Origin: Marchantia polymorpha subsp. ruderalis
Taxonomy: Eukaryota; Streptophyta; Marchantiopsida; Marchantiales; Marchantiaceae
Length of the DNA: 64,000 nt
Assembly: GCA_037833965.1 (NCBI GenBank)
Contig: AP031355.1
Location: forward strand, 27,677,501 to 27,741,500
Reading direction: 5' to 3'
In this document: positions 788-54,235 of the stretch, piece after piece
How positions within the stretch are numbered: position 1 is the stretch's first letter
How the letters are laid out: each line of letters begins with the position of its first letter
Translations under genes and position numbers: made by a program
Notes under the pieces: generated by a model
What the model saw: only the letters and a program-made list of their open reading frames with translations
The model's database searches: none
Told to the model about the DNA's origin: nothing

Positions 788-3700
788 CTACACGCCTGCA
801 CGGAACCACGCTACACTACACTCCGCGGAACCTGTACTGCGTCTCCTGCGCGGCCGACTGCCGCGCACTAACTCCCTACCCTGCCACTCTTCCGCTCGAC
901 TGCGCAGTCCCAACCGCTGCAACGCCGCGGACACCTCCCCTTCGAGGGTGGACATGGTATCCTGTGCCTTCGACAGAAAGGCTTCGAGCTTCTTCGCTAC
1001 CTTCCGCCGACTCCTACTGTCGCCTGACAACAACCCGGCTGCGCGCAATTCAAACTCACGCAGTGTGAGTTTCTCCTGCGCCTTCACTTCCCAGTGGGCG
1101 TAGCCCTTGAGACAGTGGGCGACTCGCCTCGCCGTCTCCACCTTCGTGCGATCTGCCTCCTTCCTGCGATCCTCTTCAATTATCACTAATTGCGATTCGG
1201 CTTCGGCACGTTGCGCTCTCAACTCGCCACACTCTGACTGTAACCTGCGGATTAACTCTTCATCCGCCTGCCGTGCGAGCTGACATTGTTCCAACAACCG
1301 CGTCTGTCGCACGAGCTCCTCTGACAAAATCCGATTCTGGGCCTGCTCAGAGTTGAGTGCTTCCTTGACCTTCACCTGCTCCTTGGTGAGCTCGCCCAGT
1401 TTCTCATCCTTCATCTTCTCGGTGTGCTTGTAGAACTTCTGATTAAGCTTGTACTGACCCCACAAGCACTCATGCTTCTCCTTCAAGTCCCTCAACTCCT
1501 GGTCCACTCTAGCTAATAGCTTGCTGGTGTGGACTTTAGTGCGAGTCCGCCTGCGCACTAACTCGATGTAAGATCCCGGTTGGAGTGGGTCGGCATATTT
1601 ATCGACCTTGCGATCCAAGTACCGCAGCAACGGAATCACCTGCTCAGAGAGCGCCGCCGCCGGCGCTCCAACAATTTCCTCCTCCTCCTCCTCGGTGTCT
1701 TCTGCTCCTGACATTTCTTCCGTGGAGCCTCCGTCGTCATCATCTGAGTGGAGAATTTCAGTCGCCATTGATTGCGTCGGCGACTGCCCCGAGTGGGGCT
1801 GCACGTCCTCGACGTGTGCTGCCTGCGAAGGCACAGCCGCAGCCTCGCTGCTCGTCGCCAAAATGTCTAAGGCGGAAGGCGAATGTACCCGAGCGGCATC
1901 CCCGTCGCTCGCTGGTTGATTGCCTACCGCGTTCTCTCTGTCGCCGTCGTCCGTCGCCGAAGGCGTTTGAGCGGAGGGTGGCTGCGCGGGGTTTGATTGC
2001 GCATCGCGCATCGAGATTTCATCCCGCGGACAGTCACTCCGCGCCATCGTCTGCTGCTCCCTTGATCGGTCCGTGGGGGCTGTGCCCGCCCCGTGCGCAG
2101 GCGCATTTGCCGGCGCCTTGTCCGCCGCAGGCGTAGCGCCGCGGACACCTATCGCCGAAGGCGACATGGCCGGGGGCCGCACGCCCGATGTTCCTTGGCC
2201 TATAGGCCCTACCGCCGAAGGCGCATCTATCGGCGGACTTCCCGCCGATGGTGCGGCCTCCGCACGCTCTCTGCTCGTATCTCCTCGGCTCGAAGGCCCT
2301 GGCGCCGAAGGCGCAAATTGCGGCGCGTGGTGCGCCGGAGGGTCTGGCCCCGAGGGCCGGTGTCTCGTAGGCGGTTCTTCCGCCGGCTCCTTCCCCTTCC
2401 TCCGTTGGAACGGGGGTGATTCTTGCCTGTGCGCAGGCGGCACGTGTGGAGGTGTCCTGTGCACAGGCGACCTGTGCACAGGTGAGCGCCTGTGCACAGG
2501 CGGACTGCTCCTTCCCACGCGTAAGCGTAGATCCACGTCCACTTGTGTTCGCCGGTCCGCGGAGGCTCCTCCGTCCGCGGAGGTTCTCCTGTGCGCAAAC
2601 GGAACATCTGTCCGCATCGCACGTGGTAACTCCGGAGGCCCTTGGCCCGTAGGCGGCCTCTCTCCCGACGAGGTTGCAGCGTGGCCCGTCGCTCCTGCGG
2701 TCGTCCGCGCTTCCTCTCGCCTCTCTGGCGACGCACTTCCTATCTCCGTCGCAATTGTCGCCGTGTCTGCACTGTCAGCTGGCAACACCAGTCTGCGTGC
2801 CTTCTGCTTCGGCCGGCTGTATGGCTCGCACAGCGGCCGCGGTCGAATGGGAGCAGAGGGTTCTTGATGCTGCTCCTCTTCGGACTCTTCCCTCCATCGC
2901 CGCTTCCGCGGCACTCGCGCTGCAGGGGTGTGTCTCCCTTCGTCCCTCCGTCTTGATGGGGTAGAAGTCGGTGACTCCTCTGCATCAGTGTCGACCTCGT
3001 TCTCCCGCACATACTTCCCGGGATGGTCGATGGACAATGGCGGAAAATGTTCAAGCTCCGCCGCTGTCAAACAATTCCGCTGTCGATAAAAATTGATGAG
3101 GAAAGGAGAAAGATGGTTTAGAGTTCCCCCTTTCTCCTCAAACGCGTGCTGTCGCATCACCCTGTGCAGGATGCTCGCCCAGTGAATTGGAGTTCCCTCG
3201 ATGACGCACTCCACAAAAGAGACCTGCCACAATGTGATGTAGCAGGCGCGGTGCGGCTGCAGTAATTGCATCAGCGCCGCGGACAAAGTCCGGCGAAATC
3301 GATCCTTGTAATCACGGGTCCTGTACCCATTCTTGGTAGACCTCCTGGTCTTGAACAGCTCCACAAATTGCGCCTCTTCTTGCTTAGTCACCTTGATGCT
3401 CTCACTGTCGAAAAGGAGATGCCCTGGCATGCCGGCACATCTTCCCAACGCCTGCGCCCAATCTTGGACTGTCCACCGATCAACATGCGGACGCAATCCG
3501 CGCGAGGGTGGTCCCTGTGGCTCTAGCCACTCGCGCACCATATTCGCACAGATGTAATTCCATCCCCATAGCAAGAAATCGAGCTTTCTTGCTATTAAGC
3601 GCTCCTCGAAAGCGCGCAGCCCGTTCTGCGGCAGGCGAAGTGGCACCATCCGCAATCTGCTCGGTCTCGTCATTGCGTTCCTGGGGTTCGCTCGCCCGCT

Positions 3701-3925
3701 CATTCTACTTCCGCACTGCCCGCGCTTCTTTCTCTCTCGGCAAACTCTAATCGCTCTCAATTCCAAATCACGCGCACTCACTTCTCCCTCAATCAACAAG
3801 AAATCTCCTGTGCGACGACGTCGAGAGTGTTCCGCAGCCAGCAGATGGATGCGCGCAGCGCGCACAAGAGATTGGAATCGCGAATTCAAGAATGGGACGT
3901 TCTCCGCCGCCCGGTCGAAGGTCAT
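788..3925 (-). CDS. LTR-encoded protein, 1,045 aa, function unknown (A1 3' LTR copy)
   Basis: An uninterrupted ORF in the element's sense direction, entirely inside the LTR. The ATG has A at -3 (CCGACCATGACC). Visible layout: basic N-terminus; region about 85-312 conserved in the diverged family 2 LTR, including LDFLLWGWNY near 116-124 and HLSPFLINFY near 271-280; Pro/Arg/Ser-rich middle (about 320-700) with PVHR repeats coded by DNA palindromes; an acidic run of D/E before the segment IPLLRYLDRK; a long predicted coiled coil (about 790-940, heptad-like, rich in E, L, Q, R); and a basic tail with RPRRRRS, a possible nuclear localisation signal. No signal peptide or membrane segment is evident, so it does not look like an envelope protein. 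I do not recognise the family. Conservation between families suggests a real protein; the function is not inferable. Confidence 0.75.
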   Translation of the reverse strand: MTFDRAAENVPFLNSRFQSLVRAARIHLLAAEHSRRRRTGDFLLIEGEVSARDLELRAIRVCRERKKRGQCGSRMSGRANPRNAMTRPSRLRMVPLRLPQNGLRAFEERLIARKLDFLLWGWNYICANMVREWLEPQGPPSRGLRPHVDRWTVQDWAQALGRCAGMPGHLLFDSESIKVTKQEEAQFVELFKTRRSTKNGYRTRDYKDRFRRTLSAALMQLLQPHRACYITLWQVSFVECVIEGTPIHWASILHRVMRQHAFEEKGGTLNHLSPFLINFYRQRNCLTAAELEHFPPLSIDHPGKYVRENEVDTDAEESPTSTPSRRRDEGRHTPAARVPRKRRWREESEEEQHQEPSAPIRPRPLCEPYSRPKQKARRLVLPADSADTATIATEIGSASPERREEARTTAGATGHAATSSGERPPTGQGPPELPRAMRTDVPFAHRRTSADGGASADRRTQVDVDLRLRVGRSSPPVHRRSPVHRSPVHRTPPHVPPAHRQESPPFQRRKGKEPAEEPPTRHRPSGPDPPAHHAPQFAPSAPGPSSRGDTSRERAEAAPSAGSPPIDAPSAVGPIGQGTSGVRPPAMSPSAIGVRGATPAADKAPANAPAHGAGTAPTDRSREQQTMARSDCPRDEISMRDAQSNPAQPPSAQTPSATDDGDRENAVGNQPASDGDAARVHSPSALDILATSSEAAAVPSQAAHVEDVQPHSGQSPTQSMATEILHSDDDDGGSTEEMSGAEDTEEEEEEIVGAPAAALSEQVIPLLRYLDRKVDKYADPLQPGSYIELVRRRTRTKVHTSKLLARVDQELRDLKEKHECLWGQYKLNQKFYKHTEKMKDEKLGELTKEQVKVKEALNSEQAQNRILSEELVRQTRLLEQCQLARQADEELIRRLQSECGELRAQRAEAESQLVIIEEDRRKEADRTKVETARRVAHCLKGYAHWEVKAQEKLTLREFELRAAGLLSGDSRSRRKVAKKLEAFLSKAQDTMSTLEGEVSAALQRLGLRSRAEEWQGRELVRGSRPRRRRSTGSAECSVAWFRAGV
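2425..2501. repeat. Cluster of GCCTGTGCACAGGC-type palindromes inside the LTR ORF
   Basis: Four palindromes of 12-14 bp with GTGCAC or GTGCGC centres lie within 77 bp. They are read in frame as PVHR-type repeats by the LTR ORF. More copies stand in the non-coding leader, for example the 4208-4222, 4269-4300 and 4592-4665 areas. Matching clusters occur in every family 1 LTR here. Confidence 0.8.
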
Positions 3926-6468: not shown

Positions 6469-7412
6469 TGTAATAACCCACTAAAGGCTAAAACTGCAAT
6501 ATAGTGGTAGAAAGGTCGAACCCACAGGGACAGAGGAACACACAGGGTACAAAGTGTCACGTTTTAACAGACTATTGAGGAGTTTGAATTCTCAGGCAAC
6601 TGTCACTCCCAGAAATACTGCAAGTGTCCACTCGGAGCGCACTCGGAGGTCGCACAGTGCAGCGTAACACACACACACACACACACCTGAAACTACAGAA
6701 ACACAACCCAGAGATCCGTTAGGACCTCTACTTCAAGATTTCAGGGGGAAAGTCTCTCACGAGCACACTCGGCAAAGCTGCGGGCAGTGACTTCCAACTC
6801 CGGCTTTTACAACGCTTCCACTAGCTTGCTGCTAGTGTAGGAAACCCGGTTTGGACTGCCTACTTCGGATCGAAGTCACTCCTACGCGGTGAACAACACT
6901 CTCAACTCACAAAACGCGCAGAGAACACAGGTCCGCACTGAAGGACTCACTGTGAAACATTCCAGTAACACAACAACAGTCTATTGAAGAGTTTGAATTC
7001 TCAGGCACTTGTCATTCCCAGAAATACTACAGGGGTTACCCTCAAGGCACCTGCTGCAGCGTAACCTGAATTTACAACCAAGGCTTACACGAAGTAGCAA
7101 AACTTCACTTTGGCATTCAGGGGAAAAATCCCAAGGAGTACAATCAGAAAGAAACACTCGAAGGTGTAGGGGCGAAACTGTTCAAGTATCTAACTAGTCA
7201 CTGGCTCTGAGCATCGGCAGTCACCCGCAGGTGCAGTTCCGAACTACTCAAGTCTCTAACCAATGTACTAGCTCTGAACATTCGGCCGCAGGCCTTCAGC
7301 TACAAAATGCGGAACGCTAAGTTGTAACTCCTCGTGCGTGGTGACAGAACTCAAGGACACAAACACGCAAAGGAAATGGGTTCCTGATCTATACTTCTGA
7401 TGGGAAAGAACC

Positions 7413-7441
7413 CCAGGCAAAACGCCTGGAACTATTTTATA
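7413..7441 (-). promoter_or_regulatory. TATA box and inverted repeat, A2 3' LTR
   Basis: TATAAAATAG at 7441-7432, then CCAGGC-GTTTT-GCCTGG at 7429-7413. In the 3' LTR this promoter would drive outward transcription into the A1 pol fragment. Confidence 0.6.
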
Positions 7442-7477
7442 CCTTCTAAATCCTACCTAGCACTACACTGCACTACG

Positions 7478-10400
7478 CTACACGCCTGCACGGAACCACG
7501 CTACACTACACTCCGCGGAACCTGTACTACGTCTCCTGCGCGGCCGACTGCCGCGCACTAACTCTCTACCCTGCCACTCTTCCGCTCGACTGCGCAGTCC
7601 CAACCGCTGCAACGCCGCGGACACCTCCCCCTCGAGGGCGGACATGGTATCCTGTGCCTTCGACAGAAAGGCCTCGAGCTTCTTCGCTACCTTCCGCCGA
7701 CTCCTACTGTCGCCTGACAACAACCCGGCTGCGCGCAATTCAAACTCACGCAGTGTGAGTTTCTCCTGCGCCTTCACTTCCCAGTGGGCGTAGCCCTTGA
7801 GACAGTGGGCGACTCGCCTCGCCGTCTCCACCTTCGTGCGATCCGCCTCCTCCCTGCGATCCTCTTCAATCGTCACTAATTGCGATTCGGCTTCAGCACG
7901 TTGCGCTCTCAATTCGCCACACTCTGACTGCAAACTGCGGATTAATTCTTCATCCGCCTGCCGTGCGAGCTGACATTGTTCCAACAACCGCGTCTGTCGC
8001 ACGAGCTCCTCTGACAAAATCCGATTCTGGGCCTGCTCAGAATCGAGTGCTTCCTTGACCTTCACCTGCTCCTTGGTGAGCTCGCCCAGTTTCTCATCCT
8101 TCATCTTCTCGGAGTGCTTGTAGAATTTCTGATTAAGCTTGTACTGTCCCCACAAGCACTCATGCTTCTCCTTCAAGTCCCTCAACTCCTGGTCCACTCT
8201 AGCTAATAGCTTGCTGGTGTGGACTTTAGTGCGAGTCCGCCTGCGCACTAACTCGATGTAAGATCCCGGCTGGAGTGGGTCGGCGTATTTATCGACCTTG
8301 CGATCCAAGTACCGCAGCAACGGAATCACCTGCTCAGAGAGCGCCGCCGCCGGCGCTCCAACAATTTCCTCCTCCTCCTCCTCGGTGTCTTCTGCTCCTG
8401 ACATTTCTTCCGTGGAGCCTCCGTCGTCATCATCCGAGTGGAGAATTTCAGTCGCCATTGATTGCGTCGGCGACTGCCCCGAGTGGGGCTGCACGTCCTC
8501 GACGTGTGCTGCCTGCGAAGGCACGGCTGCGGCCTCGCTGCTCGTCGCCAAAATGTCTAAGGCGGAAGGCGAATGTATCCGAGCGGCATCCCCGTCGCTC
8601 GCTGGTTGATTGCCCACAGCATTCTCTCTGTCGCCGTCGTCCGTCGCCGAAGGCGATCGAGCGGAGGGTGGCTGCGCGGGGTTGGATTGCGCATCGCGCA
8701 TCGAGATGTCGTCCCGCGGACAGTCACTCCGCTCCTCCGTCTGCTGCTCCCTTGATCGGTCCGTGGGGGCTGTGCCCAGCCCGTGCGCAGGCGCATTTGC
8801 CGGCGCCTTGTCCGCCGCAGGCGTAGCGCCGCGGACATCTATCGCCGAAGGCGACATGGCCGGGGGCCGCACGCCCGATGTTCCTTGGCCTATAGGCCCT
8901 ACCGCCGAAGGCGCATCTATCGGCGTACTTCCCGCCGATGGTGCGGCCTCCGCACGCTCTCTGCTCGTATCCCCTCGGCTCGAAGGCCCTGGCGCCGAAG
9001 GCGCGAATTGCGGCGCGTGGTGCGCCGGAGGGTCTGGCCCCGAGGGCCGGTGTCTCGTAGGCGGTTCTTCCGCCGGCTCCTTCCCCTTCCTGCGTTGGAA
9101 CGGGGTTGATTCTTGCCTGTGCACAGGCGGCACGTGTGGAGGTGTCCTGTGCACAGGCGACCTGTGCACAGGTGAGCGCCTGTGCACAGGCGGACTACTC
9201 CTTCCCACGCGTAAGCGTAGATCCACGTCCACTTGTGTTCGCCGATCCGCGGAGGCTCGTCCGTCCGCGGAGGTTCGCCTGTGCGCAAACGGAACATCTG
9301 TCCGCATCGCACGTGGTAACTCCGGAGGCCCTTGGCCCGTAGGCGGCCTCTCTCCCGACGAGGTTGCAGCGTGGCCCGTCGCTCCTGCGGTCGTCCGCGC
9401 TTTCTCTCGCCTCTCTGGCGACGCACTTCCTATCTCCGTCGCAATCGTCGCCGTGTCTGCACTGTCAGCTGGTAACACCAGTCTGCGTGCCTTCTGCTTC
9501 GGCCGGCTGTATGGCTCGCACAGCGGCCGCGGTCGAATGGGAGCAGAGGGTTCTTGATGCTGCTCCTCTTCGGACTCTTCCCTCCATCGCCGCTTCCGCG
9601 GCACTCGCGCTGCAGGAGTGTGTCTCCCTTCATCCCTCCGTCTTGATGGGGTAGAAGTCGGTGACTCCTCCGCATAAGTGTCGACCTCGTTCTCCCGCAC
9701 ATACTTCCCAGGATGGTCGATGGACAATGGCGGAAAATGTTCAAGCTCCGCCGCTGTCAAACAATTCCGCTGTCGATAAAAATTGATGAGGAAAGGAGAA
9801 AGATGGTTTAGAGTTCCCCCCTTCTCCTCAAACGCGTGCTGTCGCATCACCCTGTGCAGGATGCTCGCCCAGTGAATTGGAGTTCCCTCGATGACGCACT
9901 CCACAAAAGAGACCTGCCACAATGTGATGTAGCAGGCGCGGTGCGGCTGCAATAATTGCATCAGCGCCGCGGACAAAGTCCGGCGAAATCGATCCTTGTA
10001 ATCACGGGTCCTGTACCCATTCTTGGTTGACCTCCCGGTCTTGAACAGCTCCACAAATTGCGCCTCTTCTTGCTTGGTCACCTTGATGCTCTCACTGTCG
10101 AAAAGGAGATGTCCTGGCATGCCAGCACATCTTCCCAACGCCTGCGCCCAATCTTGGACTGTCCACCGGTCAACATGCGGACGCAACCCGCGCGAGGGTG
10201 GTCCCTGTGGCTCTAGCCACTCGCGCATCATATTCGCACAGATGTAATTCCATCCCCATAGCAAGAAATCGAGCTTTCTTGCTATTAAGCGCTCTTCGAA
10301 AGCGCGCAGCCCGTTCTGCGGCAGGCGAAGTGGCACCATCCGCAATCTGCTCGGTCTCGTCATTGCGTTCTTGGGGTTCGCTCGCCCGCTCATTCTACTT

Positions 10401-10615
10401 CCGCACTGTCCGCGTTTCTTTCTCTCTCGGCAAACTCTAATCGCTCTCAATTCCAAATCACGCGCACTCACTTCTCCCTCAATCAACAAGAAATCTCTTG
10501 TGTGACGACGTCGAGAATGGTCCGCAGCCAGCAGATGGATGCGCGCAGCGCGCACAAGAGATTGGAATCGCGAATTCAAGAATGGGACGCTCTCCGCCGC
10601 CCGGTCGAAGGTCAT
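7478..10615 (-). CDS. LTR-encoded protein, 1,045 aa (A2 3' LTR copy)
   Basis: Intact ORF of the same length as the A1 copy and collinear with it, differing by scattered substitutions (for example SARSPSATDD against SAQTPSATDD) and no net length change. It has the same parts: conserved N-terminal domain, PVHR-repeat middle, acidic run, coiled-coil C-terminus and basic tail. Lying in the U3 of the 3' LTR, it would be the last ORF on the genomic RNA, downstream of pol. Function unknown. Confidence 0.75.
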   Translation of the reverse strand: MTFDRAAESVPFLNSRFQSLVRAARIHLLAADHSRRRHTRDFLLIEGEVSARDLELRAIRVCRERKKRGQCGSRMSGRANPKNAMTRPSRLRMVPLRLPQNGLRAFEERLIARKLDFLLWGWNYICANMMREWLEPQGPPSRGLRPHVDRWTVQDWAQALGRCAGMPGHLLFDSESIKVTKQEEAQFVELFKTGRSTKNGYRTRDYKDRFRRTLSAALMQLLQPHRACYITLWQVSFVECVIEGTPIHWASILHRVMRQHAFEEKGGTLNHLSPFLINFYRQRNCLTAAELEHFPPLSIDHPGKYVRENEVDTYAEESPTSTPSRRRDEGRHTPAARVPRKRRWREESEEEQHQEPSAPIRPRPLCEPYSRPKQKARRLVLPADSADTATIATEIGSASPERREKARTTAGATGHAATSSGERPPTGQGPPELPRAMRTDVPFAHRRTSADGRASADRRTQVDVDLRLRVGRSSPPVHRRSPVHRSPVHRTPPHVPPVHRQESTPFQRRKGKEPAEEPPTRHRPSGPDPPAHHAPQFAPSAPGPSSRGDTSRERAEAAPSAGSTPIDAPSAVGPIGQGTSGVRPPAMSPSAIDVRGATPAADKAPANAPAHGLGTAPTDRSREQQTEERSDCPRDDISMRDAQSNPAQPPSARSPSATDDGDRENAVGNQPASDGDAARIHSPSALDILATSSEAAAVPSQAAHVEDVQPHSGQSPTQSMATEILHSDDDDGGSTEEMSGAEDTEEEEEEIVGAPAAALSEQVIPLLRYLDRKVDKYADPLQPGSYIELVRRRTRTKVHTSKLLARVDQELRDLKEKHECLWGQYKLNQKFYKHSEKMKDEKLGELTKEQVKVKEALDSEQAQNRILSEELVRQTRLLEQCQLARQADEELIRSLQSECGELRAQRAEAESQLVTIEEDRREEADRTKVETARRVAHCLKGYAHWEVKAQEKLTLREFELRAAGLLSGDSRSRRKVAKKLEAFLSKAQDTMSALEGEVSAALQRLGLRSRAEEWQGRELVRGSRPRRRRSTGSAECSVAWFRAGV

Positions 10616-11858
10616 GGTCGGCTCTTGGTCGTGAAGAACGTCTCACTTGATGGCCGCGCCGGCTGTACGCTGGAACGGTCTTCGCTCTCACGCGCGGCTT
10701 CACGCTCCGCCGTCGTCGATTAAACTCTCACGCTCGAATTGGCGGATTTGAACTCCGCGAGCGTGTCACCCTCCGGACATGGGGGCGTAGCGCCGAAGGC
10801 GAGTTTTCCGCCTTGCGTGGTACACTTGTTCGTACCGCCCCTCGGCCAATCTCCTTCTGCCTTGACGCGTGTGTCCGCATGTCGGACAAAAATTCAACTC
10901 CTGCCTGTGCGCAGGCAGGAGCCTCGGCGGATCCTCCGCCGGTGCGGAACTCCATCCTCCTGTGCACAGGCGTTCGCCTGTGCGTAGGCGAATTCCGTCC
11001 GCGGCGCTGTGCTGGCGCGGAAGGCGTTGACCGTGGTCAGCCGTCTCCGTCCAGACTGTCCGTTCCTTGTCTCTCCGTCGGCGCTTCCGCCGCCGCAACT
11101 CCGTCCGTCCAAGAGCGCATCCACCCGTGCCGTCCGCACGGTCCGTACCTGTTGGATTACTCTGGCGGCTCTTCCGACGTACGTGGCGCTGCGCTGGCGC
11201 GGAAGGCGCCGTACACTTTCTACCTCACAAGGCGCATTTCTAGGGCCCAAGGCGGATTCTCCGCCGACGCCGAAGTGCCTGTGCACAGGCGTACGCTTGT
11301 GCGTAGGCGGACTTCGCGCCTTCCCTAACCCTACTTCGCCTGTGCACAGGCGAACGCCTTCGTCCGTGCATAGGACAAAACTTGAATCCCCCTTCCGCGT
11401 AGGCGGAATTCGCGCCGGTGGCGAACTCCTTCCACCGTAGGCGACCGCCTCCGTTTCTTCCAGTAACGATAACTCCCTAAGTCCTCGTCCGTTCCAAGCG
11501 TTCTTGGGCTCGTTAGAATCAGCGCGTCGAGCTCTTTCCAACGGGATCCTAACTTGGTCAAGGCGCCCGAGGATTCACCTAATTACGGGGGTTTCCCTAC
11601 AGCCGCGGACGCAACCTCCGAAGGCGGGTTTTGCGCCTTGCGCCGTAGAGATCCTAACTGCGGAGCTCGCAGGGAGGGTGGTGCCTGTCCTTACTGCTGC
11701 ACCCCAAATCCCAGATTCTACAAGATCCCTCGAGAATCCCCGCGATCTTCCGGATTCACTCTGTTTTGATGTACCGAAGGCTATTTACAATGCTGCCAGG
11801 GTACAGTTTTCCAAAAATGTTTTAATTTCCTCAAAATTGCCAAAAGTGGGGTACCACA

Positions 11859-11871
11859 TGCCCCCCTCCTC
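11859..11871 (-). other. Polypurine tract of A2
   Basis: GAGGAGGGGGGCA on the minus strand, directly before the 3' LTR start at 11858 and 24 nt after the pol stop. Confidence 0.85.
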
Positions 11872-11895
11872 AATTGTGAGCGCCCACGCGAACAC

Positions 11896-14727
11896 TCACA
11901 TGTGGTATTTCTTCAACCGCCACCCGTTCACTCGGGTGCCTAACAAATCGCCGGCCAGGTCCGCGAGTTGGATGGATCCATTCGGGAAGACTTCGACAAC
12001 CCTGTAAGGTCCCATCCATCTTAGGTGCAATTTGCCTGGGAATCTGGCATGCCTGCTGTCGTAGAGCAATGCCAAATCACCCGCCTGCAGGAGTACCGGT
12101 TTGATCTTTTTATCGTATCTCTCCTTTCGACGGAGCTGGATTTTCCTGGTGCGATCTTCGGCGTCTCTTCTCCTCTCATCCAGCAGCGTGACTTCCTGTA
12201 ACCTGTAGAGCTGACTCTCCTCTGCGCCCATCCTCTGCAAATCCATCGTTCGATGGGTGGGTACTTCAAATTCGATCGGGAGGATCGGGTGTTGCCCATA
12301 CACCAGAAAGTATGGTGTCTGTTTGGTCGTGATCTTCTCAGCTGTGCGGTACGCCCACAGAGCGGCTGCTAGCTTCGTATCCCAGTCGTGAGCGTGATTC
12401 ACCGTGACCTTGAGTAGTATTTTACACAGCAGACCATTGGACTTCTCCGTTAGTCCATTTGCTTTGGGATTGTAGGGAGTAGTCTTCCGGTGCTTGATGT
12501 GGAAATATTGGGTCAGATCTTCGATGATCTGATTCAGAAAATGCGTGCCCCGGTCGCTGACTAGCTCTAAGGGACATCCGTAGCGTGTGATGATCGACTC
12601 AAACAAGAATGCTGCCACTGTGGCAGCATCATCCCTTCTGGTGGCTCTGGCCTCTACCATTTTGGTGGCGTAGTCCGTTGCTACCAGAATGTAGCGCCTT
12701 CGTGTGCTTCTAGTCACTGGTTGTATCGGCCCTACAAAGTCAATACCCCACTTTTCGAAAGGTGCTAGAGGCATGATGGGAGTCAGGGGCCAGCGTGTTG
12801 TAGGCGTCGGTCTCCCCGTCCTCTGGCAACTGTCGCACTTGCGGATGTAATCGAGAACATCCTTAAACATGGTCGGCCACCAATATCCCGCATTTAGGAT
12901 CTTTGTGACCGTGTTCCTGGTGGCATAGTGTCCACCCGCCTCCTCTGTATGCATCGCACTCACTATTCTTGGTACTTCTGATTCCTCCAGGCATCTGCAT
13001 AAGCGCTCATCTGCCATCTTCTTGAACAACACCCCCTGCTGGAGTTGGTACGGGCCTGCCTTATGAATAAAGACAGTTCGCTGTTCCAAATCCATGCCTT
13101 CGGGACACTGGAGGGTTAGCAGATATCGATACAGGTCGGCATAGCGGGACTCATGTCCTGCAGACAACTGAAATAACTCTTCATCTGGAAAATCGTCCAC
13201 CAATTCCTCCTCTGTCGGCTGGGTCCATAATCGGGACAAGTAATCCGCATTTTCGTGGTGCACCCCTTTTCTGGTCTGGACTGTGTAGGTGAACTCTTGT
13301 AGTAACAACACCCACCTGGCGATTCGACCGGATAGGTCGGCTTTCTTGACTAGGTGTTGCAATGCGTAGTGGTCCACATGGAACACAAACTCGTAGCAGA
13401 TTAGGTAGTGACGGAACTTTTTACAGGAGTACACCATCCCCAACGGTTCTCTCTCCGTTGTGGTGTACTTCCGCTCTGCTAGAGACAGCTGTCGGCTCGC
13501 AAAGTAGATCGGGTAGTCCTTTTTGTTGTCATCCTTTTGACTCAGTACTACACCGATGGCGAATGCCGAGGTGTCAACGTAAACATGGAATGGTCGATTC
13601 CAGTCTGGACTCCTTAGTACGGGAGCAGTCGTGAGTTTTGCTTTTAGAGCCTCAAATGCTGACTGCTGGTTCGCACCCCAAGCATAAGGCTCGTCCTTCT
13701 TCAACAACTTGGTCAGGTCCGCCGCCAGTATTGCATACAGGTGTATGAATCTTCGGTAGTAGCCCACATGACCCAGGAATGCTCGCAGCTCCCTTAGATT
13801 CGTGGGTGGCTCAAGCTCGAGTATAACCTTGACCTTCTCGATGTCCACCGCAATGCCGTCTGCCGAGACCCGATGACCCAACAAGATCCCACTAGTCATA
13901 AAGAAAAAGCACTTCTCGGGATGAAGTGATAAACTGCTCTCTCTGCATTTATCGAAGGTCTACTTCAGGTGACTTAGGTGTTCAGACCGCTTCCCAAAGA
14001 CACAGAAGTCATCTATGAATATTTCCAGGAACTTCCTCAGTTGTTCCTGAAAGATATTGGTCATCATCCGTTGAAAGGTGGCAGGCGCGTTGCACAGACC
14101 GAAGGGCATCTTGTGGTATGCGTAAGTTCCCCAGTCGGTTGTGAACGTAGTTTTATCCTTGTCCTGTTCACGGATAGACACCTGATTGTAACCTGAGAAC
14201 CCATCCAGGAAGCTATAACATTCATGTCCTGCGACATGGTCTAGAATGGCATCCGTGAATGGTAACGGGTGATGATCCTTGCGTGTTGCTGCATTCAACT
14301 TCCGGAAATCCTGACACACTCGTATCTTACCCGTCAACTTCTTGGGTACGATAACAATCGGCGACACCCACTCACTGCTGAGCACAGGATAAATAATACC
14401 AGCGCTCAAGTACTTATCTATCTCCTCTTTCACTAGCAAGGAGTATTTTGGGTTGAGGCGATACTGGCGCTGTCGTATGGGTACTGAGTCGTCCAGTAAA
14501 TCGATACGGTGTTCCCCATACCGTGCAGGTATCCCCTTCATGTCCTCGATCTTCCAGGCGAAGACGTCGACATAATGGCCAAGGAATGCCTGTACTTTCC
14601 TTAGCTCGTCTCCTCTCACTGCGCTTGATACCTTCAAGCACTTGCCGGGACTGAGTTGTACTTCGTGACAGTCACTAGGGTCGACAATGCCCTCAGTGTG
14701 ACTCGTCTCACTCCTTCCCAGTCCCAC
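11896..14727 (-). pseudogene. pol: A2 pol (RT-RNaseH-integrase) with one in-frame stop
   Basis: The frame runs 943 codons from GTG at 14727, three codons after the gag-PR stop. Visible domains: RT with FIDD as the YxDD-type catalytic box (about 238-241), RNaseH (VDTSAFAIG, about 380), HHCC finger, D,D35E integrase and GPY-type tail. A single TAG at 13962-13960 (in LK-stop-TFDK) replaces CAG found in A1 and A5. It lies between RT and RNaseH, so full-length pol would not be made. A3 carries the same TAG. Otherwise the frame is intact. Confidence 0.9.
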
Positions 14728-14730
14728 AGT

Positions 14731-14739
14731 TAATTGCTA
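14731..14739 (-). promoter_or_regulatory. Predicted stop-codon readthrough site UAG-CAA-UUA (gag-PR/pol)
   Basis: gag-PR ends with TAG followed by CAA TTA ACT and then pol, all in one frame with nothing else between. UAG-CAR-YYA is the established tobamovirus-type leaky stop context. The motif is identical in A3 (27938-27946) and A5 (57095-57103), and UAG-CAA-CUA in family 2 (49169-49177), which still fits. Readthrough would give a Gag-PR-Pol fusion of about 1,890 residues. Confidence 0.75.
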
Positions 14740-17568
14740 TTCGTCTTCCGGCTGAATAGCTTCCGTCTCTTCTTCTTCTTCCACCGAACAGCAGGCAACG
14801 AATCCCACGAAGTAATCGGATTCGGTACCACTGGAATCCGATCGCGCGGTCGACTCACTGTCCTCGCCCGATGTGTAACCTGCACTTGTCGATGGGGTCT
14901 CTCCTTCGTGCCTGACCCTATTCCAGGGCACCGTAATGGTTTTGGTCGGTTCCGAAGGATGAGGAAACTTCAGGCGATGTCTTCGCCAATCACATCTGAC
15001 TTGTGCACCATATAGCCATGGTCGCCCGAGCAGAACGTCATAGCCCTGCTTCATCATCGGCTGAAGGATGATATACGTCAACCGAAAGTCCGCACCCCCG
15101 ATGGTTGTCTTGACATTGCGCAGCATACCTGCAGGCATTCTCCGCGTCTGATCCGCTAATCTCAACACACGCCTCGAGGGTTCGTATTGACTGAACCCCA
15201 AGGCTCTCGCTGTATCCTCCGTCATTATGTTGACTCCTGATCCAGAGTCGATTGGCACTCTGCGTACACAACACCCTGCTATTTCCACATCGATCTTGGG
15301 TGGCCCTTGGTCTTCGCTCTCCACTTGATATACTTGAGAGGATGTGGATGCGCGCGGCTTCCGCGGATGCCGTAGCGAAAGCATCAACATTCTCCGATAC
15401 GTCTTATTGTCCTCCAAGAGCTGCTTGAACGTGATGTTCACTTTTCGACTCCCGAGATCTTCAACCAAGTCATAGTGGGCGCGTTGGGTCGCCGGGGTCG
15501 GCGACGCTCTGCGAGGTTCCACGGTGGCTGCCAACTTCGCCCCAAGGGAGGATGTCAAGTCTGGCCGCGGTGGGTCCTTTTGCGTGCGGATCGCTTCCTT
15601 CAACAGGTTGGCTACCTCGTTGCGGATATCCGGAGCATAGTCCCGTTTCAGTAGGCGCACTGGCTCGTCCTCGACTGCTGTCTGGGGGCGCCCTGCTGGT
15701 GCCTCCCGCGTAGCCGAAGACTTCCGAGCAGGTCGCGAGTCGGACTTGCTGGATGTCTTCTCCTTTCCTTTTCCCGTCCGGTCGTCGGGTCTCCGTTCGT
15801 GCTTGCGAGTGTCACGCTCTTGCTCCTTCGATTTCTTGGAACTACGAGTTTCGACCCGTGCGCACATGACCTCTTCAGCCGGCCATTCTTCGTCTTCGCC
15901 ATCCCCGTCTGAACCTACTTCGACCTGGTTAACTTGCACGTCCTCCTTGGCAGGAGTGTTCACAAATCGTACCACTGGCCGAGGGACTGGTGGATGATCA
16001 CACTCTGGCGCAGTGTGCCCGACCTTCTTGCAATTACTACATGTCGGAGCATAATCGTTTCGCCTTTTTGGATGGGGACACTGCGGTGAGAAGTGCCCAA
16101 CTTCCCCGCAATTATAACAAGCTCGCGGTGGCGGTGGGTCAAACGTCCCTGGAGGTGCTCTCCGCCTCACAGGTACCGTAGTGGCCCGATCCACCGGAAT
16201 ATATCGTGGGACTTGCATTGCTGAAACTGCAGGAGGGGTAGGAACCGACTGGACGGCGTAGGCTGTCTCTTCGCTAGCCTCTCCATAGTACTGAGGGTGC
16301 TCTCCATAGTACGGTTGCGCCCACTCTACTGCGTTGACTGGATATGACGGCCGGGTGGTAAGGCACTCGGTGTTTGCATGTCCCACCGCCCCGCACGTAG
16401 TACACCATAAGTTCGCTCGCACTCTCCCGGGTGATTTTCTGCGATCATGCCCGCCTACCACTTGAACCTTGAGATCGGCGAAGTCCTTCACAAGGGTCTC
16501 CATCTTCGAAGCTATATCTCCCGGCGCTCTGTCCGTAGTCACTCGTCGGATGCCCTTTTTCTTCGCTGACCCATGCTTCTTCCTCTTCTTCTCCTCCTCC
16601 GACGATGAGGTTTCCTCTTCTTCGGATGAAGAACGGTTCTCGTCCGAAGACGATTCCTCCGATGACGGAGTTGTACCTCTACGTCGTCACCGCCCTCCCT
16701 TCGGTTTTCGCTCCTTCGACTCCCGTCTCTCTCTCCCTCTTCGGTTGAGAGTGGAAGTTTCGAAGGCTTCTGCCGACGCAATCACATCCTCAATAGTGTC
16801 GCACTTGCTGCGTCGGCAAAAAGTCTCCATCTCCCGAGTTAAACCGGTCACGTACCAATCCACAGCTTGTTGTACCGAGAAAGGGGACCCTGGTCCTGTT
16901 TTCGGTATTCTGTCGAGGAGGTCCAGAAATCTCTCAGTGTAGTCACGCAGACTCTCCTTCTTCTCTCGCTGCAAATTACGTAACTTCGTCAAAACCCGGC
17001 TGTCGTAGCCGAGCTCGCGGAAGCGGCGAAGGAACTTCTCCTTCAGCTGGGCCCATGTTGTCAACCCAGTCGGATCGATGCTCTCGTGATTGTACCAACT
17101 CCTCGCTTTCTTCCGCAGAAGGCTTGGAAAGATCCTTAGTCGGTCGTCGTCTGCGATCTCGCGATTGGCAATAGACACCGACTCGAATAACTTGATGTAT
17201 GAATCTGCATCGTCGTCATCCCCACTCCCTTTGTACTTCGGGTAGGAATGTTTAGTAATCGGCTGAGGTAGCCGCACATTGGCTTGTCCGTCCGCCATCG
17301 GTGTGTCTGTCGACGGTTCTCGGGCGGTCGGTTCTACTTCACTAGGCGGGTCCGTGCAAGGAATATCTAGTAGAACTGTAAGCACCAAGTTTGGTTCCGA
17401 GTCGTCGGGGGTAGGTTCTCCAAGGATGTCGGCCGAACTAGGCTTAGGTACTCTTTTTGGTGTTTTCTTGTTTTGACGCCTTGTCTCTTCCACGGCCTTC
17501 TCTGAATCTCGTCGGAACTTGCGGACAGCTCTAGCACTTAGGTTGCTCCCGCCAGCCCCAGTCGACAT
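14737..17568 (-). pseudogene. gag: A2 gag-protease with one in-frame stop
   Basis: 943-codon frame from ATG at 17568 to TAG at 14737. Layout: basic N-terminus; capsid-like Retrotrans_gag segment (about 95-270, ITKHSYPKYKG through RSWYNHES to VDWYVTGL); Ser/Glu-rich tract; three CCHC zinc knuckles (CTTCGAVGHANTEC, CYNCGEVGHFSPQC, CSNCKKVGHTAPEC); then an aspartic protease with the active-site motif DSGSG (about 773-777). A TGA at 16689-16687 (AGA in A5) interrupts it just after the capsid-like part, so only a truncated Gag is expected. A GTG-initiated segment from 16542 would carry knuckles and protease if used; I see no evidence for that. Confidence 0.9.
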
Positions 17569-17614
17569 TCACCGAGCATGGCTGCTCGTAAAAACCCCGG
17601 TGTTGACGCAACTG

Positions 17615-17654
17615 TCCCCGGCAGCGGCGCCAAAAAGAAGTTGTCGGCTTCTTA
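17615..17654 (-). other. Primer-binding site (tRNA-Asp type) and 22-nt spacer, A2
   Basis: On the minus strand TGGCGCCGCTGCCGGGGA (17632-17615) matches the complement of the plant tRNA-Asp 3' end apart from about one position. It stands 22 nt from the LTR end (17655) instead of the usual few nt. The spacer reads TAAGAAG...CTTCTTT and can pair as a 6-bp hairpin. The same 22-nt spacing occurs in A5 and family 2. Confidence 0.85.
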
Positions 17655-18598
17655 TGTAATAACCCACTAAAGGCTAAAACTGCAATATAGTGGTAGAAAG
17701 GTCGAACCCACAGGGACAGAGGAACACACAGGGTACAAAGTGTCACGTTTTAACAGACTATTGAGGAGTTTGAATTCTCAGGCAACTGTCACTCCCAGAA
17801 ATACTGCAAGTGTCCACTCGGAGCGCACTCGGAGGTCGCACAGTGCAGCGTAACACACACACACACACACACCTGAAACTACAGAAACACAACCCAGAGA
17901 TCCGTTAGGACCTCTACTTCAAGATTTCAGGGGGAAAGTCTCTCACGAGCACACTCGGCAAAGCTGCGGGCAGTGACTTCCAACTCCGGCTTTTACAACG
18001 CTTCCACTAGCTTGCTGCTAGTGTAGGAAACCCGGTTTGGACTGCCTACTTCGGATCGAAGTCACTCCTACGCGGTGAACAACACTCTCAACTCACAAAA
18101 CGCGCAGAGAACACAGGTCCGCACTGAAGGACTCACTGTGAAACATTCCAGTAACACAACAACAGTCTATTGAAGAGTTTGAATTCTCAGGCACTTGTCA
18201 TTCCCAGAAATACTACAGGGGTTACCCTCAAGGCACCTGCTGCAGCGTAACCTGAATTTACAACCAAGGCTTACACGAAGTAGCAAAACTTCACTTTGGC
18301 ATTCAGGGGAAAAATCCCAAGGAGTACAATCAGAAAGAAACACTCGAAGGTGTAGGGGCGAAACTGTTCAAGTATCTAACTAGTCACTGGCTCTGAGCAT
18401 CGGCAGTCACCCGCAGGTGCAGTTCCGAACTACTCAAGTCTCTAACCAATGTACTAGCTCTGAACATTCGGCCGCAGGCCTTCAGCTACAAAATGCGGAA
18501 CGCTAAGTTGTAACTCCTCGTGCGTGGTGACAGAACTCAAGGACACAAACACGCAAAGGAAATGGGTTCCTGATCTATACTTCTGATGGGAAAGAACC

Positions 18599-18627
18599 CC
18601 AGGCAAAACGCCTGGAACTATTTTATA
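18599..18627 (-). promoter_or_regulatory. TATA box and inverted repeat, A2 5' LTR (likely genomic RNA promoter)
   Basis: TATAAAATAG at 18627-18618 and CCAGGC-GTTTT-GCCTGG at 18615-18599. In the 5' LTR this is the expected promoter of the genomic RNA; a start about 30 nt downstream would lie near 18595. Confidence 0.65.
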
Positions 18628-18663
18628 CCTTCTAAATCCTACCTAGCACTACACTGCACTACG

Positions 18664-21600
18664 CTACACGCCTGCACGGAACCACGCTACACTACACTCC
18701 GCGGAACCTGTACTACGTCTCCTGCGCGGCCGACTGCCGCGCACTAACTCTCTACCCTGCCACTCTTCCGCTCGACTGCGCAGTCCCAACCGCTGCAACG
18801 CCGCGGACACCTCCCCCTCGAGGGCGGACATGGTATCCTGTGCCTTCGACAGAAAGGCCTCGAGCTTCTTCGCTACCTTCCGCCGACTCCTACTGTCGCC
18901 TGACAACAACCCGGCTGCGCGCAATTCAAACTCACGCAGTGTGAGTTTCTCCTGCGCCTTCACTTCCCAGTGGGCGTAGCCCTTGAGACAGTGGGCGACT
19001 CGCCTCGCCGTCTCCACCTTCGTGCGATCCGCCTCCTCCCTGCGATCCTCTTCAATCGTCACTAATTGCGATTCGGCTTCAGCACGTTGCGCTCTCAATT
19101 CGCCACACTCTGACTGCAAACTGCGGATTAATTCTTCATCCGCCTGCCGTGCGAGCTGACATTGTTCCAACAACCGCGTCTGTCGCACGAGCTCGTCTGA
19201 CAAAATCCGATTCTGGGCCTGCTCAGAATCGAGTGCTTCCTTGACCTTCACCTGCTCCTTGGTGAGCTCGCCCAGTTTCTCATCCTTCATCTTCTCGGAG
19301 TGCTTGTAGAATTTCTGATTAAGCTTGTACTGTCCCCACAAGCACTCATGCTTCTCCTTCAAGTCCCTCAACTCCTGGTCCACTATAGCTAATAGCTTGC
19401 TGGTGTGGACTTTAGTGCGAGTCCGCCTGCGCACTAACTCGATGTAAGATCCCGGCTGGAGTGGGTCGGCGTATTTATCGACCTTGCGATCCAAGTACCG
19501 CAGCAACGGAATCACCTGCTCAGAGAGCGCCGCCGCCGGCGCTCCAACAATTTCCTCCTCCTCCTCCTCGGTGTCTTCTGCTCCTGACATTTCTTCCGTG
19601 GAGCCTCCGTCGTCATCATCCGAGTGGAGAATTTCAGTCGCCATTGATTGCGTCGGCGACTGCCCCGAGTGGGGCTGCACGTCCTCGACGTGTGCTGCCT
19701 GCGAAGGCACGGCTGCGGCCTCGCTGCTCGTCGCCAAAATGTCTAAGGCGGAAGGCGAATGTATCCGAGCGGCATCCCCGTCGCTCGCTGGTTGATTGCC
19801 CACCGCATTCTCTCTGTCGCCGTCGTCCGTCGCCGAAGGCGATCGAGCGGAGGGTGGCTGCGCGGGGTTGGATTGCGCATCGCGCATCGAGATGTCGTCC
19901 CGCGGACAGTCACTCCGCTCCTCCGTCTGCTGCTCCCTTGATCGGTCCGTGGGGGCTGTGCCCAGCCCGTCAGCAGGCGCATTTGCCGGCGCCTTGTCCG
20001 CCGCAGGCGTAGCGCCGCGGACATCTATCGCCGAAGGCGACATGGCCGGGGGCCGCACGCCCGATGTTCCTTGGCCTATAGGCCCTACCGCCGAAGGCGC
20101 ATCTATCGGCGTACTTCCCGCCGATGGTGCGGCCTCCGCACGCTCTCTGCTCGTATCCCCTCGGCTCGAAGGCCCTGGCGCCGAAGGCGCGAATTGCGGC
20201 GCGTGGTGCGCCGGAGGGTCTGGCCCCGAGGGCCGGTGTCTCGTAGGCGGTTCTTCCGCCGGCTCCTTCCCCTTCCTGCGTTGGAACGGGGGTGATTCTT
20301 GCCTGTGCACAGGCGGCACGTGTGGAGGTGTCCTGTGCACAGGCGACCTGTGCACAGGTGAGCGCCTGTGCACAGGCGGACTACTCCTTCCCACGCGTAA
20401 GCGTAGATCCACGTCCACTTGTGTTCGCCGATCCGCGGAGGCTCGTCCGTCCGCGGAGGTTCGCCTGTGCGCAAACGGAACATCTGTCCGCATCGCACGT
20501 GGTAACTCCGGAGGCCCTTGGCCCGTAGGCGGCCTCTCTCCCGACGAGGTTGCAGCGTGGCCCGTCGCTCCTGCGGTCGTCCGCGCTTCCTCTCGCCTCT
20601 CTGGCGACGCACTTCCTATCTCCGTCGCAATCGTCGCCGTGTCTGCACTGTCAGCTCGTAACACCAGTCTGCGTGCCTTCTGCTTCGGCCGGCTGTATGG
20701 CTCGCACAGCGGCCGCGGTCGAATGGGAGCAGAGGGTTCTTGATGCTGCTCCTCTTCGGACTCTTCCCTCCATCGCCGCTTCCGCGGCACTCGCGCTGCA
20801 GGAGTGTGTCTCCCTTCATCCCTCCGTCTTGATGGGGTAGAAGTCGGTGACTCCTCCGCATAAGTGTCGACCTCGTTCTCCCGCACATACTTCCCGGGAT
20901 GGTCGATGGACAATGGCGGAAAATGTTCAAGCTCCGCCGCTGTCAAACAATTCCGCTGTCGATAAAAATTGATGAGGAAAGGAGAAAGATGGTTTAGAGT
21001 TCCCCCCTTCTCCTCAAACGCGTGCTGTCGCATCACCCTGTGCAGGATGCTCGCCCAGTGAATTGGAGTTCCCTCGATGACGCACTCCACAAAAGAGACC
21101 TGCCACAATGTGATGTAGCAGGCGCGGTGCGGCTGCAATAATTGCATCAGCGCCGCGGACAAAGTCCGGCGAAATCGATCCTTGTAATCACGGGTCCTGT
21201 ACCCATTCTTGGTTGACCTCCCGGTCTTGAACAGCTCCACAAATTGCGCCTCTTCTTGCTTGGTCACCTTGATGCTCTCACTGTCGAAAAGGAGATGTCC
21301 TGGCATGCCAGCACATCTTCCCAACGCCTGCGCCCAATCTTGGACTGTCCACCGGTCAACATGCGGACGCAACCCGCGCGAGGGTGGTCCCTGTGGCTCT
21401 AGCCACTCGCGCACCATATTCGCACAGATGTAATTCCATCCCCATAGCAAGAAATCGAGCTTTCTTGCTATTAAGCGCTCTTCGAAAGCGCGCAGCCCGT
21501 TCTGCGGCAGGCGAAGTGGCACCATCCGCAATCTGCTCGGTCTCGTCATTGCGTTCCTGGGGTTCGCTCGCCCGCTCATTCTACTTCCGCACTGTCCGCG

Positions 21601-21801
21601 TTTCTTTCTCTCTCGGCAAACTCTAATCGCTCTCAATTCCAAATCACGCGCACTCACTTCTCCCTCAATCAACAAGAAATCTCCTGTGTGACGACGTCGA
21701 GAATGGTCCGCAGCCAGCAGATGGATGCGCGCAGCGCGCACAAGAGATTGGAATCGCGAATTCAAGAATGGGACGCTCTCCGCCGCCCGGTCGAAGGTCA
21801 T
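18664..21801 (-). CDS. LTR-encoded protein, 1,045 aa (A2 5' LTR copy)
   Basis: Intact ORF, nearly identical to the A2 3' LTR copy; differences include ADGLG for AHGLG and LAIVDQ for LARVDQ. As the 5' LTR copy lies upstream of the TATA box, it is not on the genomic RNA; expressing it would need a promoter in the 1.24-kb leader between 21802 and 23044. Domain layout as in the A1 copy. Function unknown. Confidence 0.75.
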   Translation of the reverse strand: MTFDRAAESVPFLNSRFQSLVRAARIHLLAADHSRRRHTGDFLLIEGEVSARDLELRAIRVCRERKKRGQCGSRMSGRANPRNAMTRPSRLRMVPLRLPQNGLRAFEERLIARKLDFLLWGWNYICANMVREWLEPQGPPSRGLRPHVDRWTVQDWAQALGRCAGMPGHLLFDSESIKVTKQEEAQFVELFKTGRSTKNGYRTRDYKDRFRRTLSAALMQLLQPHRACYITLWQVSFVECVIEGTPIHWASILHRVMRQHAFEEKGGTLNHLSPFLINFYRQRNCLTAAELEHFPPLSIDHPGKYVRENEVDTYAEESPTSTPSRRRDEGRHTPAARVPRKRRWREESEEEQHQEPSAPIRPRPLCEPYSRPKQKARRLVLRADSADTATIATEIGSASPERREEARTTAGATGHAATSSGERPPTGQGPPELPRAMRTDVPFAHRRTSADGRASADRRTQVDVDLRLRVGRSSPPVHRRSPVHRSPVHRTPPHVPPVHRQESPPFQRRKGKEPAEEPPTRHRPSGPDPPAHHAPQFAPSAPGPSSRGDTSRERAEAAPSAGSTPIDAPSAVGPIGQGTSGVRPPAMSPSAIDVRGATPAADKAPANAPADGLGTAPTDRSREQQTEERSDCPRDDISMRDAQSNPAQPPSARSPSATDDGDRENAVGNQPASDGDAARIHSPSALDILATSSEAAAVPSQAAHVEDVQPHSGQSPTQSMATEILHSDDDDGGSTEEMSGAEDTEEEEEEIVGAPAAALSEQVIPLLRYLDRKVDKYADPLQPGSYIELVRRRTRTKVHTSKLLAIVDQELRDLKEKHECLWGQYKLNQKFYKHSEKMKDEKLGELTKEQVKVKEALDSEQAQNRILSDELVRQTRLLEQCQLARQADEELIRSLQSECGELRAQRAEAESQLVTIEEDRREEADRTKVETARRVAHCLKGYAHWEVKAQEKLTLREFELRAAGLLSGDSRSRRKVAKKLEAFLSKAQDTMSALEGEVSAALQRLGLRSRAEEWQGRELVRGSRPRRRRSTGSAECSVAWFRAGV
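20301..20377. repeat. Palindrome cluster in LTR ORF (A2 5' LTR)
   Basis: GCCTGTGCACAGGC at 20301-20314 and 20364-20377, and CCTGTGCACAGG at 20332-20343 and 20347-20358. All are perfect palindromes, read through as Pro-Val-His-Arg repeats. Confidence 0.85.
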
Positions 21802-22083
21802 GGTCGGCTCTTGGTCGTGAAGAACGTCTCACTTGATGGCCGCGCCGGCTGTACGCTGGAACGGTCTTCGCTCTCACGCGCGGCTTCACGCTCCGCCGTC
21901 GTCGATTAAACTCTCACGCTCGAATTGGCGGATTTGAACTCCGCGAGCGTGTCACCCTCCGGACATGGGGGCGTAGCGCCGAAGGCGAGTTTTCCGCCTT
22001 GCGCGGTACACTTGTTCGTACCGCCCCTCGGCCAATCTCCTTCTGCCTTGACGCGTGTGTCCGCATGTCGGACAAAAATTCAA

Positions 22084-22175
22084 CTCCTGCCTGTGCGCAG
22101 GCAGGAGCCTCGGCGGATCCTCCGCCGGTGCGGAACTCCATCCTCCTGTGCACAGGCGTTCGCCTGTGCGCAGGC
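22084..22175. repeat. Palindrome cluster in non-coding LTR leader (A2 5' LTR)
   Basis: A 24-bp inverted repeat (22084-22107, 10-bp arms CTCCTGCCTG/CAGGCAGGAG, TGCG loop) is followed by CCTGTGCACAGG (22145-22156) and GCCTGTGCGCAGGC (22162-22175). It is the same core as in the ORF but outside any conserved frame. Confidence 0.8.
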
Positions 22176-40613: not shown

Positions 40614-40830
40614 TGTGATACCCCACTTTTGGTAATTTTGAGGAAATTAAAACATTTTTGGAAAACTGTACCTTGGCAGCAATGTAAATAGCCTTCGGTG
40701 CATCAAAACAGAGTGAATTCGGAAGATTGCAGAGATTCTCGAGGGACCTCGTAGAATCTAGGAGTTGGGTGCAGCGGTAAGGACGGGCACCACCCTCCCT
40801 GCGAACTCTGCAGCTAGGATCCCTACGGCG
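40614..40830 (+). repeat. LTR D, start fragment nested in LTR C
   Basis: Begins TGTGATACCCCACTTTTGG at 40614 and keeps 217 bp of leader up to CTACGGCG, where the family 2 LTR begins. Confidence 0.7.
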
Positions 40831-45346: not shown

Positions 45347-45375
45347 TATAAAATAGATCAAGGCGTTTTGCCTTG
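45347..45375 (+). promoter_or_regulatory. Family 2 LTR TATA box and inverted repeat
   Basis: TATAAAATAG (45347-45356), then CAAGGC-GTTTT-GCCTTG (45359-45375). Compared with family 1 (CCAGGC...GCCTGG), a C-G pair is replaced by A-T with pairing kept. Located 32 bp after the ORF stop. Confidence 0.7.
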
Positions 45376-54222: not shown

Positions 54223-54235
54223 TGCCCCCCTCCTC
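54223..54235 (-). other. Polypurine tract of A5
   Basis: GAGGAGGGGGGCA on the minus strand before the LTR start at 54222. Confidence 0.85.

Follow-up and report, generated by a model that had tools for sequence, protein, structure and literature searches.

Plant long terminal repeats (LTRs) are as a rule regarded as regulatory DNA that does not code for protein. A gene lying inside an LTR has been described in a vertebrate betaretrovirus, mouse mammary tumour virus (MMTV). According to the portions of the sources that deal with it, the entire open reading frame (ORF) of its sag gene is situated in the unique 3' (U3) region of the LTR (PMC12789967), U3 contains a promoter for sag called P2 (PMC9412291), and the product, Sag, is a type II membrane protein (PMC12789967). 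The present work deals with a sense ORF of 1,045 codons situated in the LTR of a Ty3/gypsy element, designated A2, in a 64-kb stretch of the genome of the liverwort Marchantia polymorpha subsp. ruderalis (assembly GCA_037833965.1, contig AP031355.1, positions 27,677,501 to 27,741,500, hereafter the window, within which all positions are given). Like sag, as far as those portions describe it, this ORF would be contained whole in U3 and would be located downstream of pol on the genomic RNA (PMC12789967, PMC9412291); unlike Sag, its protein shows no membrane segment and belongs to a plant Ty3/gypsy element. The ORF is probably a true accessory gene belonging to a group of non-chromovirus Ty3/gypsy elements of a Marchantia-like liverwort, situated in U3 between the polypurine tract (PPT) and a TATA box.

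Different plant LTR retrotransposons carry additional ORFs (aORFs) outside the LTRs. The 3' sense aORFs of Athila/Tat and SIRE (env-like, Athila ORF1, Transposase_32) are, like the Marchantia ORF, extra sense genes located 3' of pol in large elements. However, they lie between pol and the 3' LTR (PMC7264820), while the Marchantia ORF lies past the PPT and inside the LTR, has no sequence or profile match to them, and encodes a protein devoid of transmembrane segments. The antisense ORFs of Retand, Grande and RIRE2 (Transposase_28) are likewise large and close to the 3' end, but they are found on the opposite strand of the internal region, whereas the Marchantia ORF is in sense orientation, in the LTR, and without a Transposase_28 match. 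For some proteins of this antisense type, the available sections of two reports describe a nuclear location or a structural maintenance of chromosomes (SMC)-type domain (PMC7264820, PMC11963269), and some other plant aORF proteins are, in the sections concerned, reported or predicted to be nuclear (PMC7264820, PMC11728184). The 5' ORF0/aORF of Tekay and Retrosat2 is also an extra ORF beside long LTRs (PMC3485330, PMC11728184), although it is placed upstream of gag-pol in chromoviruses, and the Marchantia element has no chromodomain match. No plant precedent for an ORF inside an LTR appeared in the titles or abstract openings of the open-licence literature searched by wording, and one may nevertheless exist.

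The ORF occupies positions 7478-10615 on the minus strand and is a sense ORF because gag-pol of its host element is on the same strand. Element A2 (6469-23044, -), delimited by self-BLAST of the window and by reading its flanks, possesses a broken gag-pol and two LTRs of 5,390 bp (3' LTR, 6469-11858, -; 5' LTR, 17655-23044, -) that are 99.67% identical. Both LTRs have TG...CA ends, and the target duplication GGACA is present at either side of the element. The ORF covers 3,138 of the 5,390 bp of the LTR (58%). Copies were searched by tblastn and self-comparison within the window, and the ORF of this family (family A) was found at eight places: three intact copies, two broken, two partial and one cut by the window end. 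The other intact copies are located in the A2 5' LTR (18664-21801, -) and in the 3' LTR of element A1 (788-3925, -), an LTR that runs past the window edge. The copy of element A3 (32056-34884, +) is broken by one stop and small indels, and a deletion has removed its end together with the TATA box; that of element A4 (50069-52978, -) carries one internal stop and its end is cut by an inversion-like junction. The partial copies comprise the last 77 codons, in the other, truncated LTR of A4 (61033-61263, -), and the first 298 codons, in the A1 5' LTR (24184-25077, -), where a deletion joins them to pol. Finally, copy A5 (62512-64000, +) is open for 496 codons as far as the window end. The first-pass annotation, made from the sequence alone, had reported the 1,045-codon sense ORF inside a Ty3/gypsy LTR, its share of about 58%, the three intact copies and several broken ones, and all of these observations were confirmed. 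A tblastn search against plasmids gave no match, as expected.

An open frame of this kind could be a non-functional product of GC-rich, repeat-rich DNA: the GC content of the ORF is 60%, the middle of its protein is a repeat-rich linker, and a shadow ORF of 315 aa is present on the opposite strand. This explanation is refuted, and we consider its probability to be minimal. In 300 dinucleotide shuffles of the LTR, the longest ORF averaged 174 aa and never exceeded 425 aa, less than half of the 1,045 codons observed; the pattern of changes at codon positions, the dN/dS values and the conservation across families described below also argue against it. Another ORF of 215 aa located earlier in U3 (10894-11541, -) was rejected as coding, since the aligned frame of A1 contains an internal stop.

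The ORF is under purifying selection. The ratio of nonsynonymous to synonymous change (dN/dS) was obtained by Nei-Gojobori counting between copies that are not independent of each other. For the whole ORF, A1 and A2 (3' LTR) differ with a dN/dS of 0.19 (47.5 synonymous and 29.5 nonsynonymous changes; Fisher p ~1e-12), the changes at codon positions 1, 2 and 3 being 18, 10 and 49 (p 7e-8). The two LTRs of A2 constitute a neutral control, since both were made from a single template when the element inserted and have accumulated changes by drift afterwards; their ORFs give a dN/dS of 0.96 (3 synonymous and 9 nonsynonymous changes; 5, 3 and 4 at the three positions). Over ten comparisons between family-A elements the ratio ranges from 0.13 to 0.32, pairs other than A1 and A2 giving 0.13-0.25 and A4 versus A5 giving 0.32 on 16 changes. 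Gene-like evolution between transposition rounds and neutrality once inserted are as expected of an element gene. The first-pass annotation had inferred such a gene and had proposed dN/dS among copies as the check; between family-A elements the ratio is not near 1, and the values of 0.13-0.32 against 0.96 in the control support that inference.

Constraint is unevenly distributed along the ORF. Between A1 and A2, dN/dS is 0.03-0.06 in the conserved N-terminal domain (residues 85-312), 0.28 in the linker (residues 313-759) and 0.13-0.16 in residues 760-1045. In the gag-pol of the same elements the ratio is 0.16 for gag, 0.22-0.25 for the protease region, 0.03-0.05 for the reverse transcriptase (RT) and 0.04-0.07 for the RNaseH-integrase region, a 6-codon gag comparison with A3 having been set aside. 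Thus, the level of constraint on the N-terminal domain is similar to that on RT and integrase.

Homologous ORFs are present in two other families of the window. The first-pass annotation had asked for a related ORF in other LTR families, and such an ORF was found twice: in family C it lies in the LTR, and in family B it follows the PPT. The family C LTR (40831-46280, +) has 5,450 bp and the same order of elements as that of family A, with the ORF at the equivalent place (42192-45314, +); its frame is broken in the repeat-rich middle, leaving open pieces at 42192-43130 and 43569-45314. Two blocks of 70-72% base identity link A and C over the stretch running from the C-terminal region of the ORF as far as the LTR end, and their N-terminal domains are 54% identical in 276 codons, with a dN/dS of 0.25. 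In family B, whose LTR starts at 36941 and is preceded by a purine tract, the ORF (38135-39962, +) is frame-shifted and truncated by the next insertion; its N-terminal domain is 75% identical to that of A in 230 codons, with a dN/dS of 0.086. The B and C ratios are rough, because dS in the N-terminal domain is 1.6-1.9, near saturation, and C-terminal dS is undefined. The LTR sequence starting at 39963 (first 680 bp) was considered as U3 of family C and rejected, being a separate LTR fragment, as family C begins at 40831. The interval 39963-40830, directly before the family C LTR, contains the start fragments of two LTRs in tandem, which come from another related family (78% and 91% identity to A).

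An initial protein search returned four relatives, all from M. polymorpha. A profile search then scored the 7,996 candidates sharing most words with the profile and gave 154 relatives at E up to 1; among the best 120 of these 154, which were listed, 107 belong to M. polymorpha subsp. ruderalis. The closest relatives found share at most 82% identity over more than 100 residues. In a 46-row alignment of the N-terminal domain, pairwise identity has a mean of 62% and a minimum of 31% (computed over the 1,015 pairs that have 80 or more columns in common). The lack of likeness to gag, pol and known aORFs would suit a captured host gene, or a gene of another transposon nested in the LTR. However, the ORF precedes the TATA box at the same place in families whose N-terminal domains are only 54% identical, its constraint is pol-like, and the 120 relatives listed resemble members of a repeat family, although a host gene may be among them. 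Such a capture is therefore very improbable.

With respect to the LTR regions, the PPT GAGGAGGGGGGCA (11859-11871, -) stands immediately before the A2 3' LTR, upstream of the ORF, and the putative TATA box GGTATAAAATAG (7432-7443, -) is located 36 nt past the ORF stop in family A and 32 nt in family C. The order is PPT (11859-11871), ORF (10615-7478) and TATA box (7443-7432), so a complete sense ORF is enclosed between the PPT and a putative core promoter. A sense-strand scan for TATAAA or TATAWAW gave a single match in each of the A and C LTRs, and both matches are part of GGTATAAAATAG. This motif is found in five of the five window LTRs that retain the stretch (at 753, 7443, 18629 and 60995, -, and at 45345, +); A3 lacks it by deletion, and the remaining LTRs end before or start after it. 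TATAAA is found seven times in the whole window, counting both strands. Because the sole sense TATA box found sits just past the ORF stop, the ORF appears to lie in U3, provided that this box is the core promoter setting the start of the genomic RNA. The parallel with MMTV drawn by the first-pass annotation is thus closer than had been stated, since the TATA position puts the ORF in U3, as sag is.

From this order of signals, it is very likely that the main genomic RNA would begin in the 5' LTR past the ORF and would have a single copy of it, 3'-terminal and preceded by pol and the PPT. Reverse transcription would copy that U3 to both element ends and, as a result, each insertion would contain two ORF copies, and a solo LTR one. 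By analogy with MMTV sag, the ORF would somewhat more probably than otherwise be translated from a separate short RNA, either spliced from the genomic RNA or started in U3. As for its origin, we can speculate that an ordinary 3'-end gene, as in Athila, entered the LTR once plus-strand priming passed to a PPT lying upstream of this gene.

A different explanation is that each LTR is a self-contained gene, in which the 1.2-1.5 kb of U3 preceding the ORF would supply a promoter, and the repeat (R) region following it a polyadenylation site. Any LTR, including solo LTRs, would then make the protein and help the family in trans, the U3 promoter P2 of MMTV being the model. The 1.24 kb of U3 before the ORF, the presence of a core promoter and the LTR remainder directly after it, the existence of such a promoter in U3 of MMTV, in the sections describing it (PMC9412291, PMC12789967), and the fact that both ORF copies of A2 are intact while its gag-pol is broken are consistent with this idea. 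However, neither A nor C shows a TATA box before the ORF, and in that part of U3 both families align in short stretches only. We therefore consider it possible but unlikely that every LTR of these liverwort elements, even a solo one, is a cassette of promoter, selected 961-aa gene and terminator. The family would in this way keep scattered, recombination-proof copies of the gene for a trans-acting protein, an arrangement that would have arisen in plants by a shift of the PPT upstream of a 3' gene. If this were true, it would mark the first case of an accessory protein coded in U3 in anything other than a vertebrate retrovirus, with an independent origin in plants.

The translation start is probably Met85 (ATG at 10363-10361), which is common to families A, B and C; residue 85 is Met in 24 of the 27 rows of the 46-row alignment that reach this point. 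Codons 1-84 are the least constrained part of the ORF (dN/dS 0.31-0.52 on few changes, A1 versus A2), and in family B their frame is broken. Hence, the 1,045-codon length given by the first-pass annotation holds for the open frame, and the protein probably has 961 aa because Met85 is the start conserved across families.

The protein can be divided into several regions, in agreement with the layout first proposed. The N-terminal domain (9680-10363, -) contains the conserved motifs LLWGWN, LGRCAG, LFK...KNGYRTRDYKDR.RR, LQPHR, WQV.FVE and NHLSPFLINFYR. It is followed by a disordered, repeat-rich linker, rich in proline, serine and threonine and carrying basic patches, and by an acidic run at about residues 728-750, after which a conserved EQV.PLLRYLDRK..KY motif is found. 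The conserved C-terminal part (residues 755-1045; 7481-8353, -) comprises a predicted helix and a basic tail. Of the two structure predictions initially suggested, the C-terminal one gave a single helix of 166 residues (802-967), which may correspond to the coiled coil, with a predicted local distance difference test (pLDDT) of 81 and a predicted template modelling score (pTM) of 0.37, whereas the N-terminal one was too weak to be of use. Basic runs resembling nuclear localization signals (NLS) are present. No membrane segment was detected, the maximum 19-residue hydropathy being 1.14. The protein is about three times as long as Sag.

The earlier statement that the protein matches no recognised family still stands, since comparisons with Pfam, with PDB sequences and folds, and between profiles did not rise above noise. 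The best PDB sequence matches had non-significant E values of 0.61 and 0.23, and against PDB folds neither the N-terminal model (best E 2.6) nor the C-terminal rod model (best E 9.9) matched. These comparisons bear on the possibility that the ORF is an ordinary plant 3' sense aORF of the Athila ORF1/Transposase_32 type, overgrown by the LTR and retaining the function of those proteins. It shares with them the side of pol, the strand and the NLS-like runs, and a sunflower Athila 3' aORF has, in the section devoted to it, partial Transposase_32 similarity and a predicted NLS (PMC11728184). However, hmmscan gave no match to Transposase_32 (PF20167) or Athila ORF-1 for the ORF, the 46 alignment members or their consensus, and none to Transposase_28 (PF04195) or the plant mobile domain (PF10536) for the ORF, for the 46 members up to E 1 or for the consensus up to E 10. 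Kinship of the N-terminal domain with Transposase_32 was likewise not supported by hhalign against a profile of 32 of the 92 listed Transposase_32 proteins: probabilities were 0.2-0.3% and scores 14-18, within the controls (100 column-shuffled profiles, 14.5 +/- 2.8, maximum 27.6; reversed profile, 17.3). One alignment fell on the segment expected beforehand (E 0.31, score 17.9), also within the controls. An Athila-type identity is consequently rather doubtful.

The protein is best read as an accessory of replication or regulation, likely nuclear, to judge from its architecture, its U3 location and the polymerase-like constraint on its N-terminal domain. Tentatively, it might be a nuclear, oligomeric factor of nucleoprotein type, in which the N-terminal domain would make a specific contact, the P/S/T-rich linker would provide flexibility, the coiled-coil rod would mediate self-assembly, and the basic patches would serve in nucleic acid binding or nuclear entry.

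Different observations weigh against the interpretation of the ORF as a U3 accessory gene. The U3 assignment depends on one conserved TATA box, and the TATAAA/TATAWAW scan found none before the ORF in either family. The N-terminal structure model is poor (pLDDT 54). Between A and B the linker (residues 345-640; 60% identity in 232 codons) has a dN/dS of 0.69, and is therefore weakly constrained between families. The copies of the window are related and may share gene conversion, and the frames of its B and C copies are broken, as are those of two family-A copies. In addition, none of the relatives among the matches listed has a species name outside M. polymorpha.

The remaining parts of A2 are those of a Ty3/gypsy element. 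The primer binding site (PBS) TGGCGCCGCTGCCGGGGA (17615-17632, -) is located 22 nt past the 5' LTR and appears to resemble the 3' end of plant tRNA-Asp; a PBS for tRNA-Asp and the position in an RT tree are the criteria for the Tat/Athila clade. The gag-pol region (11896-17568, -) is a single frame with three inner stops and codes for gag, zinc knuckle, protease, RT, RNase H and integrase. The domain order in Pfam (RT-RNaseH-integrase) is that of gypsy and fits a non-chromovirus Ty3/gypsy element; no chromodomain match was obtained up to E 1 in the 667-aa ORF, and the Pfam scan listed no RNase H families beyond two overlapping RT-RNaseH models. A2 possibly belongs to a clade of Marchantia Ty3/gypsy elements lacking an additional RNase H, for which, unlike A2, LTR ORFs are not mentioned in the part of the description available.

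One of the three inner stops of A2 may be a readthrough site. A TAG separates gag-protease from RT-integrase in the same frame at 14739 (-), 27938 (+), 57103 (-) and 49169 (+). It is followed by CAATTA in the three family-A copies holding the site, and by CAACTA in family C, which has another stop 30 codons earlier. This context, presumably that of the tobacco-mosaic-type leaky stop UAG-CARYYA, suggests pol production by stop-codon readthrough. Another in-frame pol stop is common to A2 (13962, -) and A3 (28715, +) and absent from A4, possibly reflecting a subfamily spread by trans-complementation.

Two rearrangements were also observed. In the A1 5' LTR (23017-25077, -), the deletion fuses the 298 codons of the U3 ORF in frame with pol, for which 321 of 377 12-residue words match the pol frame of A2, and a 686-aa open frame results. 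A4 (49512-61282, -) sits between the end of a plus-strand LTR (to 50067) and the start of a plus-strand LTR (from 61265), and the two junctions coincide on one 5-bp segment of the LTR (the counterpart of 7708-7712). This arrangement looks like self-integration or two linked events.

If a selected gene is located in U3, LTRs can be genes, and copies of the gene could persist in solo LTRs after the rest of the element is gone. Land plants would then have acquired separately a layout resembling that of MMTV sag. Since the LTR pair within each element provides a built-in neutral control for selection, this claim is directly testable with public Marchantia genomes and RNA-seq data.
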